Position numbers and translations under genes: made by a program. From Archaeoglobi archaeon JdFR-42 (lineage in GTDB: Archaea > Halobacteriota > Archaeoglobi > Archaeoglobales > JdFR-42), in NCBI GenBank assembly GCA_002010305.1, contig MTND01000025.1, positions 1 through 53,187 of the forward strand: a DNA stretch of 53,187 nucleotides. The letters run 5' to 3'. Shown one piece after another: positions 30,550 to 33,762 of the stretch. Each line of letters opens with the position of its first letter. Within the stretch, counting starts at the first letter, position 1. The notes beneath the pieces are model-generated. The model searched no databases. It worked only from the letters and a program-made list of their open reading frames with translations, and was not told where the DNA came from.

Positions 30550-30667
30550 CCCTCTTTTGAATGCAAAGGTTTAGATGAAGTTAGTGTAATGGCCATTAAT
30601 CCCAATCAATCCGTCAAGAACATTAAGTCCACGACTTATAATTTGTCACAAGGTTAATATTATTGTA

Positions 30668-30684
30668 AACCATTGGTTTACTGT
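30668..30684. promoter_or_regulatory. 17-bp perfect palindrome, possible operator
   Basis: GTAAACCATTGGTTTAC (approximate span) is symmetric about its central base. It lies just before the two long direct repeats upstream of the BlaI-like gene and shares the GTAAAC/GTTTAC half sites with them. Confidence 0.5.
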
Positions 30685-30712
30685 TTGTCAACTAACGTTG
30701 ACAATATTGTAA
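30676..30712. repeat. Tandem operator-like repeat, copy 1 (37 bp)
   Basis: This copy is identical to the unit at 30718-30754. Inside it, 30685-30704 is the dyad TTGTCAACTAACGTTGACAA (8-bp arms, 4-bp spacer), flanked by the outer half sites GTTTAC and GTAA(AC). Placed upstream of a BlaI/MecI-family gene, it is most likely the repressor's own operator. Confidence 0.75.
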
Positions 30713-30717
30713 ACTTC

Positions 30718-30754
30718 GTTTACTGTTTGTCAACTAACGTTGACAATATTGTAA
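30718..30754. repeat. Tandem operator-like repeat, copy 2 (37 bp)
   Basis: This is the second identical copy, with a 42-bp period (about four helical turns), so bound dimers would lie on the same DNA face. Its dyad is at 30727-30746. A further half site, CTGTCAACAATAT, lies at 30781-30793 right beside the TATA-like element. Confidence 0.75.
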
Positions 30755-30794
30755 CTCTTGTACATTATAAATTGTTAATTCTGTCAACAATATG

Positions 30795-30801
30795 GTTATA
30801 T
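30795..30801 (+). promoter_or_regulatory. TATA box of the BlaI-like operon
   Basis: GTTATATAC lies about 25-31 bp before the ATG at 30826. A TGTCAACA half operator immediately precedes it, so repressor binding could block TBP/TFB access. Confidence 0.5.
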
Positions 30802-30825
30802 ACCACATTCAATAGAGGAAGTACT

Positions 30826-31188
30826 ATGGTCAAACAACTTCGCCTGGATGTCGCCAATGAGGGCCTTGAACAGTTTTTCTCCCCCCTAGAGGCAAGAATA
30901 ATGGAATTGCTGTGGGAAAGGGGAAAGATGACCACTTCTCAAATCAGCAAGGAATTAAATGTAAGCCTCTCAAGTGTAGGAGGTACACTGGATAGGTTAG
31001 TGAAGACGGGATATGTGGGTAGAACTTCTGTAAAAGAGGGAACCAGATTTAAGTACGTCTATTCTCCCGCCATCTCTAAAGATGAATTTGCAGAGTCGGT
31101 TACTGACCGTATACTCAGCAATCTTATAGAAACCTTTGGTGAAATAGTTGTTGATAATTTCTACAAGAAAATAAGGGGATCTAGGTGA
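30826..31188 (+). CDS. BlaI/MecI-family winged-helix repressor
   Basis: The 120-residue protein starts at ATG 30826, with GAGGAA 6-11 bases upstream. The frame stays open further upstream only because it crosses the repeats. The winged helix is LEARIMELLWERGKMTTSQI, then SKELNVSLSSVGGTLDRLVK and GYVGRTSVKEGTRFKYVYSP; the C-terminal helices for dimerisation follow. EARIMELLWE and the TLDRLxxKG motif are typical of BlaI/MecI (Penicillinase repressor) proteins. It overlaps the next gene, a membrane metallopeptidase, by 4 bases. In bacteria BlaI is inactivated by the paired BlaR1 peptidase. Confidence 0.85.
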   Translation: MVKQLRLDVANEGLEQFFSPLEARIMELLWERGKMTTSQISKELNVSLSSVGGTLDRLVKTGYVGRTSVKEGTRFKYVYSPAISKDEFAESVTDRILSNLIETFGEIVVDNFYKKIRGSR

Positions 31189-31862
31189 GTGAAAACCTAA
31201 CTTGTGTTGTAGCTTGTCTCAAACTTTCCAATACTCTGTACCCTGTTGGATTAATCGGGGCTATAGTGATACTCTCCATGATAATTTTTCGACGTGTTGG
31301 TAATCCTCATACCAGAGTGAAAATGTTCTGGTTCAGTAACATCACAGCCCTGGTGAACGTACCCCTTGTAGTGGGTTCTATGCGCTGTGATTATAGTTTG
31401 CTGAAGATATATGTAACATATCTAATAGCCCTTTTTGCAGCACTAGTGTTTCTGGTTCCCATTTATCAAAAATATCTCACAAAAAAATACAGCGCTATGA
31501 GAGCGGAAAAACTATTTCCTTGGATTAGATCTTTTGTGGATTCCATCGAAAAAGCTGAGGTCTATCTTATTGAATCGGCCATTCCCAGAGCTTTTACCAT
31601 AGGAAAGAAAATCTTCATCTCAGGAGGTATGGCCGAGATTCTGGATGAAAATGAGTTGAAGGCTGTGATTGCTCACGAATTATACCATGTCCGCCAGAAC
31701 AGAAAGTCACCTATGCTAAAAGGACTTTCCATGATGACCTTCCTTCCGTTTTTGGTGAAAGATGACATAGAAATGGCGGCAGATGAATTCTCATCTTTAA
31801 TTGCTGGTAGAGAATACCTGATCTCGGCGAGACGAAAAATTGAAAAATTCTTCAATAGCTAA
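31185..31862 (+). CDS. Membrane zinc metallopeptidase (BlaR1/M56- or M48-like)
   Basis: The 225-residue protein has a GTG start overlapping the repressor stop. It has three N-terminal transmembrane segments: about 18-35, about 48-64 and TYLIALFAALVFLVPIYQKY at about 78-97. The cytosolic protease domain follows, with zinc motif HELYH (164-168) and the third ligand in EMAADEF (E196). PRAFTIGKKIFISGGMAEIL is the typical pre-motif strand region. Unlike BlaR1, no extracellular penicillin-binding sensor domain is present. Paired with BlaI, it probably cleaves the repressor or controls its release in response to a membrane signal. Confidence 0.82.
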   Translation: MSENLTCVVACLKLSNTLYPVGLIGAIVILSMIIFRRVGNPHTRVKMFWFSNITALVNVPLVVGSMRCDYSLLKIYVTYLIALFAALVFLVPIYQKYLTKKYSAMRAEKLFPWIRSFVDSIEKAEVYLIESAIPRAFTIGKKIFISGGMAEILDENELKAVIAHELYHVRQNRKSPMLKGLSMMTFLPFLVKDDIEMAADEFSSLIAGREYLISARRKIEKFFNS

Positions 31863-33249: not shown

Positions 33250-33762
33250 TTACCGTGAGTTTCGAATATGATTTCTGTAATACCCCGATGAGAATTTAAG
33301 GAAATTTATCAAAGAAAGCCTAGTCTGTTCATCATCAGGTTCTGTTGCATATCCAATGTATGCAAGTTTCTGACCCATCACATCGATAACTTTCCCATTC
33401 TCATCAACCACATAAAATTCTGGCGTTCCGGTAGCACCATATTTAAGAGCAATGGTTTTATCTCTTTTAAAGTTCACTCCTATGGGTACGAACTCAGATA
33501 TAGCCTCTTGCAAATCTGGATATTTTTCGAGATCATCATGAAAAGCCTTGCACACATGACAGCTCTCTGAATATATGTGTACGAGACCTGGTTTTCCAGT
33601 TTTTCTTACAAGATTCAGTCCCTTATCGTAGCTGTAAAATTTTATATTTCCTATGGTATATACTTCAGTATTCTCTGTGTAGGAAGCCAGTCCATACACG
33701 ACCGCTAGTAAGATTATTGCTATTCCAGCAACATAGATAATCTTCAATCCCCTCATACTCAC
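33250..33762 (-). CDS. Membrane-anchored thioredoxin-like protein
   Basis: The protein has 170 residues. An N-terminal transmembrane anchor (IIYVAGIAIILLAVVYGLA, about 8-26) precedes an extracytoplasmic thioredoxin fold. The active-site pair is CHVC (C68, C71) and the cis-proline is P114 in TGTPEFYVVD. The CxxC reads SESCHVCKAF rather than the classic WCGPC, as in DsbD-C-/SoxW-like and archaeal anchored thioredoxins. It probably reduces or exchanges disulfides outside the membrane. An ATG two codons later is also possible. Confidence 0.8.
   Translation of the reverse strand: MSMRGLKIIYVAGIAIILLAVVYGLASYTENTEVYTIGNIKFYSYDKGLNLVRKTGKPGLVHIYSESCHVCKAFHDDLEKYPDLQEAISEFVPIGVNFKRDKTIALKYGATGTPEFYVVDENGKVIDVMGQKLAYIGYATEPDDEQTRLSLINFLKFSSGYYRNHIRNSR

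Follow-up and report, generated by a model that had tools for sequence, protein, structure and literature searches.

Tandem repeats upstream of an archaeal blaI-like gene as probable copies of a dispersed 42-bp double-palindrome element

Introduction

MITEs of the IS630/Tc1-mariner type are non-autonomous elements with inverted termini and a 2-bp target-site duplication that prefers TA. Much smaller are the small dispersed repeats (SDRs) of Nostoc, which Elhai and colleagues are said to have described in 2008; these cyanobacterial repeats are reportedly 21-27 nt long, encode no enzyme, are inferred to be mobile and contain a conserved hairpin with compensatory changes. Mitochondrial repetitive hairpin elements (RHEs) are described in PMC2800124, which cites the double hairpins of Allomyces, as two neighbouring hairpins that are intergenic and inferred to be mobile, with conserved stems and variable loops. 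REPs and REPINs, as described in PMC3116915 and PMC3733652, are short intergenic palindromes in a paired arrangement that form tandem clusters and encode no enzyme. Among archaea, the PATEs/SMRs of Haloquadratum are transposase-free elements with terminal palindromes and core-deleted forms down to 52 bp; the PATEs belong with transposons of the IS605 type and insert without duplicating their target (PMC3119063).

Here we describe repeats from Archaeoglobi archaeon JdFR-42, found in a contig stretch of 53,187 nucleotides (the window) just upstream of a BlaI-like repressor gene. A sequence-only reading had taken them for cooperative operators of that repressor. Our analysis makes it likely that they are instead tandem copies, two of them clear and a third decayed, of a non-autonomous mobile DNA element of 42 bp with two palindromes, of which this one genome holds about 80 copies.

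Results

The first gene downstream of the repeats encodes a BlaI/MecI-like winged-helix repressor of 120 aa (30826..31188, + strand) that is conserved in relatives and matches the BlaI-family profile Penicillinase_R (PF03965) with E=1.3e-13 and 51.7 bits, against a cut-off of 22.6. It is overlapped by 4 bp by the gene of a 225-aa membrane zinc peptidase (31185..31862, + strand), an M48-like gluzincin with the motifs HELYH and ExxxD. This arrangement, in which the genes of a BlaI-type wHTH protein and of a membrane zinc peptidase overlap, is that of BlaI-BlaR1 and MecI-MecR1, but here the peptidase scores above the cut-off for M48 (PF01435, 34.6 bits; cut-off 20.3) and below that for M56 (PF05569, 19.3 bits; cut-off 31), and by these profile scores it appears closer to M48 than to M56/BlaR1. 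Pfam found neither a penicillin-binding nor any further domain within its 225 aa. The archaeal BlaI-like repressor paired with an HExxH membrane peptidase free of a penicillin-binding domain, as recognised in the sequence-only reading, thus stands.

The pair is conserved across Archaeoglobales-like genomes. H164, E165, H168, E196 and D200 are invariant in nine aligned peptidases, and besides the zinc motif so are three cysteines, C7, C11 and C68. The pair adjoins the cytochrome c maturation gene CcmH in five of nine inspected relatives (L013, L016, L023, L024, L026); CcmF next to the pair is confirmed by Pfam in one relative, with similar proteins in others. A membrane-anchored thioredoxin-like protein (CHVC) is encoded near the pair in the window, on the opposite strand (33250-33762). 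Ten of 15 relatives (L012-L028) carry a GTAAA-containing motif between the TATA box and the blaI start, and none is present in the TATA-ATG interval of the window.

Upstream of blaI, two 40-nt repeats (30673-30712 and 30715-30754) share 98% identity at a start-to-start spacing of 42 bp. Their inner 37 nt are the same, and the two identical stretches together span 30676-30754 with a period of 42. Each repeat contains the 20-bp palindrome TTGTCAACTAACGTTGACAA (30685-30704 and 30727-30746); a 17-bp palindrome, GTAAACCATTGGTTTAC, lies at 30665-30681, and a partial site, TTGTTAATTCTGTCAACAA (30772-30790), adjoins the putative TATA box TTATATA (30796..30802, + strand), which judged by its sequence would sit about 25 bp 5' of the blaI ATG, a leaderless-type spacing. 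The 37-bp repeats with their 42-bp period and long dyad, the 17-bp palindrome and the partial site had all been noticed before, and we find them as described.

When as many as 3 mismatches are allowed, the home genome holds 59 matches to TTGTCAACN4GTTGACAA, of which 16 are exact, and the reversed control gives 2. The pattern thus recurs genome-wide, far above chance, and a promoter regulon was rejected for want of promoter bias. Alignment of the sites defined a 20-bp palindrome P1, TTGTCAAC-N4-GTTGACAA, preceded in nearly all sites, at a distance of 1 base, by a 21-bp palindrome P2, TTGTAAAG-N5-CTTTACAA. The P2-P1 unit is found in both orientations, its conserved positions reading TATTGTAAAG...GTTGACAATA, and a covariance model returned 82 matches at E<0.01 in the home genome, forming 73 clusters. 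Copies average 69% identity, and a few lone P2 hairpins are also present. The repeats can no longer be assigned to the blaI promoter alone, as they had been, since the same pattern is present genome-wide in about 80 copies.

In these terms the order at this place in the window is P2-T-P1-TA-P2-T-P1-TA, after which comes what is probably a third copy in decay. Copy 1 (30663..30704, + strand; 61.6 bits with covariance model R1) consists of P2 TTGTAAACCATTGGTTTACTG at 30663-30683, the spacer T and P1 at 30685-30704, with TA on both flanks. The tandem copy 2 (30707..30746, + strand; 50.9 bits with R1), likewise flanked by TA on both sides, has a short P2, TTGTAAACTTCGTTTACTG, at 30707-30725, the spacer T and a P1 (30727-30746) the same as that of copy 1. 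The probable third copy (30749..30790, + strand) is made up of a P2-like TTGTAACTCTTGTACATTATAA at 30749-30770, an A and the P1-like partial site at 30772-30790, then TA; it was recognised from its sequence and from a weak covariance match at 30754-30794 (11.7 bits, E=0.013 for 281 bases searched).

Variants of this arrangement occur elsewhere in the genome. Three tandem P1 palindromes at an exact 45-bp period, with two P2 between them, lie 5' of an N-acetylglutamate-kinase-like gene (L048 6809-6918, corresponding to G000:C8:40808-40917), and this array is a local tandem amplification of the 42-bp element. A shorter subfamily of 19+1+19 bp with loops TTC/CTC (L144, C11:7256-7343; L128, C2:52848) resembles copy 2 of the window.

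Placement was counted against genes called with a dicodon gene caller, by which 87% of the DNA is coding. All but one of the 73 clusters are intergenic, and the genes around these 72 are tandem in 40 cases, convergent in 17 and divergent in 15, compared with 184/50/80 (in the same order) when every gap of 50 bp or more is counted. Element strand shows no preference relative to gene strand (17:17), some copies lie at gene ends, and no promoter bias was found among the 72 intergenic clusters of the home genome. This placement is unlike the distribution of operators.

The stem arms of the element covary and its loops vary. In an alignment of 28 copies, 94.6% of cells pair and 10 of 16 pairs have changed on both sides, with 27 doubly changed cells against 6 in shuffles. 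The P2 arms of 46 standard copies, a set collected with a covariance model that somewhat favours pairing, show 11 symmetric double changes where 2.8 double changes are expected from independent arms; P2 covariation is the cleaner test, because the first copies were found without using P2. G-U and A-C combinations are equally frequent (38 and 36), and therefore nothing suggests that one element strand is read into RNA. Together, the covarying arms, the free loops and the parity of G-U and A-C point to structure at the DNA level. The consensus folds into two adjacent hairpins with conserved pairing (z=-7.7), and with DNA parameters two stable hairpins form in either strand. Template switching can perfect palindromes, and covariation alone is no proof of selection on structure.

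In 38 of 67 clean copies the 2 bases on either side of the element form an identical direct repeat, against 22.7 expected by permutation (p<2e-4), and the signal is confined to 2 bp. Nine of the identical pairs (about 24%) are other than TA, namely AA, TT, GA or TG (p<2e-4), and only one inverted non-TA pair was found. Identical flanks of this kind indicate a 2-bp target-site duplication.

One copy with GA/GA flanks, at C5:42167, sits in the METTL5-Csl4 junction. Csl4 starts between -17 and +17 nt from the METTL5 stop in nine of ten linked relatives and at +72 in the home genome; the tenth relative (G007) also has a long gap, +77, that includes an N. In the home genome the METTL5 tail VKRSFINCQ is encoded by the element, and when the core and one dinucleotide are removed in silico the protein ends in VEVYRIVN*, compared with VEV[YF]R[IML]ER in most relatives. 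The site is thus occupied where relatives, all from other genera rather than strains of the same species, have a tight junction. An unrelated gene on C9 bears the same element-encoded tail, as IVKRSFTDC.

Outside the home genome the element is essentially absent from the genomes searched. The covariance model found nothing at E<=0.05 in 59 relatives, a genome of the same family included (best value 0.08), and among 394 genomes drawn from the phylum it gave two matches only, both at chance level. About 18 of some 450 relatives retain the blaI-peptidase pair, with the element essentially missing from all of the approximately 450; the region 5' of blaI was inspected in 15 relatives, and none of them has the element there. 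The P1 pattern itself is rare in 79 relatives (0-3 per genome at up to 2 mismatches), and in unrelated bacteria it is scattered and near chance level among the matches listed. A site, TGGTCAACNTANGTTGACTA, recurs in five Archaeoglobales-like genomes; four of these loci were read, and in them it lies within the gene of an ABC substrate-binding protein. A viral origin was rejected, as P1 is matched exactly in 23 viral contigs but adjoins a P2 in none.

The home genome, a 42-contig assembly, was also searched for an enzyme that might mobilise the element. Y1 (RAYT) transposase (PF01797) gave no match at E<=1 where control genomes were positive, and TnpB gave none over the cut-off; two TnpB signals that we examined were a TFB and a multihaem cytochrome. 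The element has TTGT...ACAA termini; of two transposase families searched, IS630-type DDE_3 and IS4/IS5-type DDE_Tnp_1, no resident gene was found. At four sampled loci, no Rfam family reached its gathering threshold.

Discussion

If the repeats formed a cooperative operator array through which BlaI autoregulates the blaI-peptidase operon, their position 36-163 bp 5' of blaI, by its TATA box, would be accounted for. The TGTAAA/TGTCAA half-sites in P2 and P1 make weak binding conceivable, and the GTAAA motif of the ten relatives might be read the same way. That motif, however, is a short site 3' of the TATA box and not a 42-bp unit; of the two, it is the better candidate operator. An operator should be confined to, and conserved at, blaI and its targets, but some 80 copies lie elsewhere, 17 clusters of them between convergent genes, and relatives that retain the gene pair, including the 15 inspected upstream of blaI, are without the element. 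We therefore regard the claim of cooperative BlaI operators as very unlikely to be right. The sequence-only reading had itself allowed that repeats found as mobile elements elsewhere would speak against it, and this is what the roughly 80 dispersed copies, the position of 17 of the 72 intergenic clusters where genes converge and the 2-bp target-site duplications amount to.

Palindromes of 20-21 bp that are spaced by about two helical turns, keep strictly to intergenic DNA and occur in many copies could also be bound by a different dimeric regulator with a large regulon, or by a protein that organises the nucleoid or chromosome. We think this unlikely given the lack of promoter bias, the direct 2-bp flanks that include non-TA pairs and the restriction of the element to the home genome; moreover, paired arms that change together around free loops are unlike the site of a sequence-reading dimer. 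An action in RNA, as bidirectional terminators or mRNA-stabilising hairpins, would suit the stable hairpins of either strand and the copies at gene ends, and it is highly improbable in view of the 15 clusters between divergent genes, the 17:17 strand balance, the lack of any G-U excess over A-C (38:36) and the silence of Rfam at the sampled loci.

The computed dispersal, double-palindrome anatomy, arm covariation, 2-bp direct flanks and occupied junction are best explained by a non-autonomous mobile DNA element. Such an element would insert with a 2-bp, TA-preferring target duplication, and its two hairpins, extruded from DNA or single-stranded, would be recognised by a mobilising enzyme. Local tandem copies, including those 5' of blaI, would arise by duplication after insertion, and the blaI-peptidase operon would simply bear an insertion just 5' of its TATA box. 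Because copies average only 69% identity, mobility may be old. As to mechanism, we suggest, tentatively and with considerable doubt, that the element spreads through an enzyme outside the Y1/IS605 hairpin-transposase group; the intermediate would then probably be a single-stranded or extruded hairpin, since a duplex of 42 bp is too stiff for its ends to be paired in the ordinary way.

The element behaves like the smallest mobile repeats known so far, yet it falls within the full definition of none of the SDRs, mitochondrial double hairpins, REPINs or PATEs: it is without a RAYT, a GTAG tag or an IS605 link, and it has a 2-bp target duplication. It shares with the Nostoc SDRs its small size, dispersal and compensated hairpins, and differs in its two unlike hairpins, its 42 bp and its duplicated flanks. 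Like the IS630/Tc1-mariner MITEs it is non-autonomous and has inverted termini, here TTGT...ACAA, and a 2-bp duplication that prefers TA, but it is only 42 bp long, about a quarter of its identical flanks are non-TA and no DDE_3 transposase was detected in its genome. The RHEs and double hairpins are mitochondrial and unrelated in sequence, and target duplication is not established for them in the available part of PMC2800124. Although 82 extragenic palindromic copies are reminiscent of REPs, the 5' GTAG or CGTC tag of REPs is missing and no Y1 gene was found; where a REPIN pairs one REP with its inverted copy, the two palindromes here are unlike. The PATEs differ in their IS605-type association and their lack of target duplication (PMC3119063), where the flanks of the archaeal element described here indicate a 2-bp duplication and its genome gave no Y1 match and no TnpB match over the cut-off.

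For the gene pair itself, its sequence and neighbourhood make a link to extracytoplasmic thiol/redox or cytochrome c maturation status plausible, and the invariant cysteines of the peptidase could possibly act as a redox sensor.

The repeats are also a caution that arrays of palindromes near promoters can be insertions and not operators. If the element is indeed mobile, few mobile DNAs known from archaea would be as small, and its combination of two hairpins and a 2-bp flank duplication with no obvious transposase would make the movement of such tiny elements directly testable.
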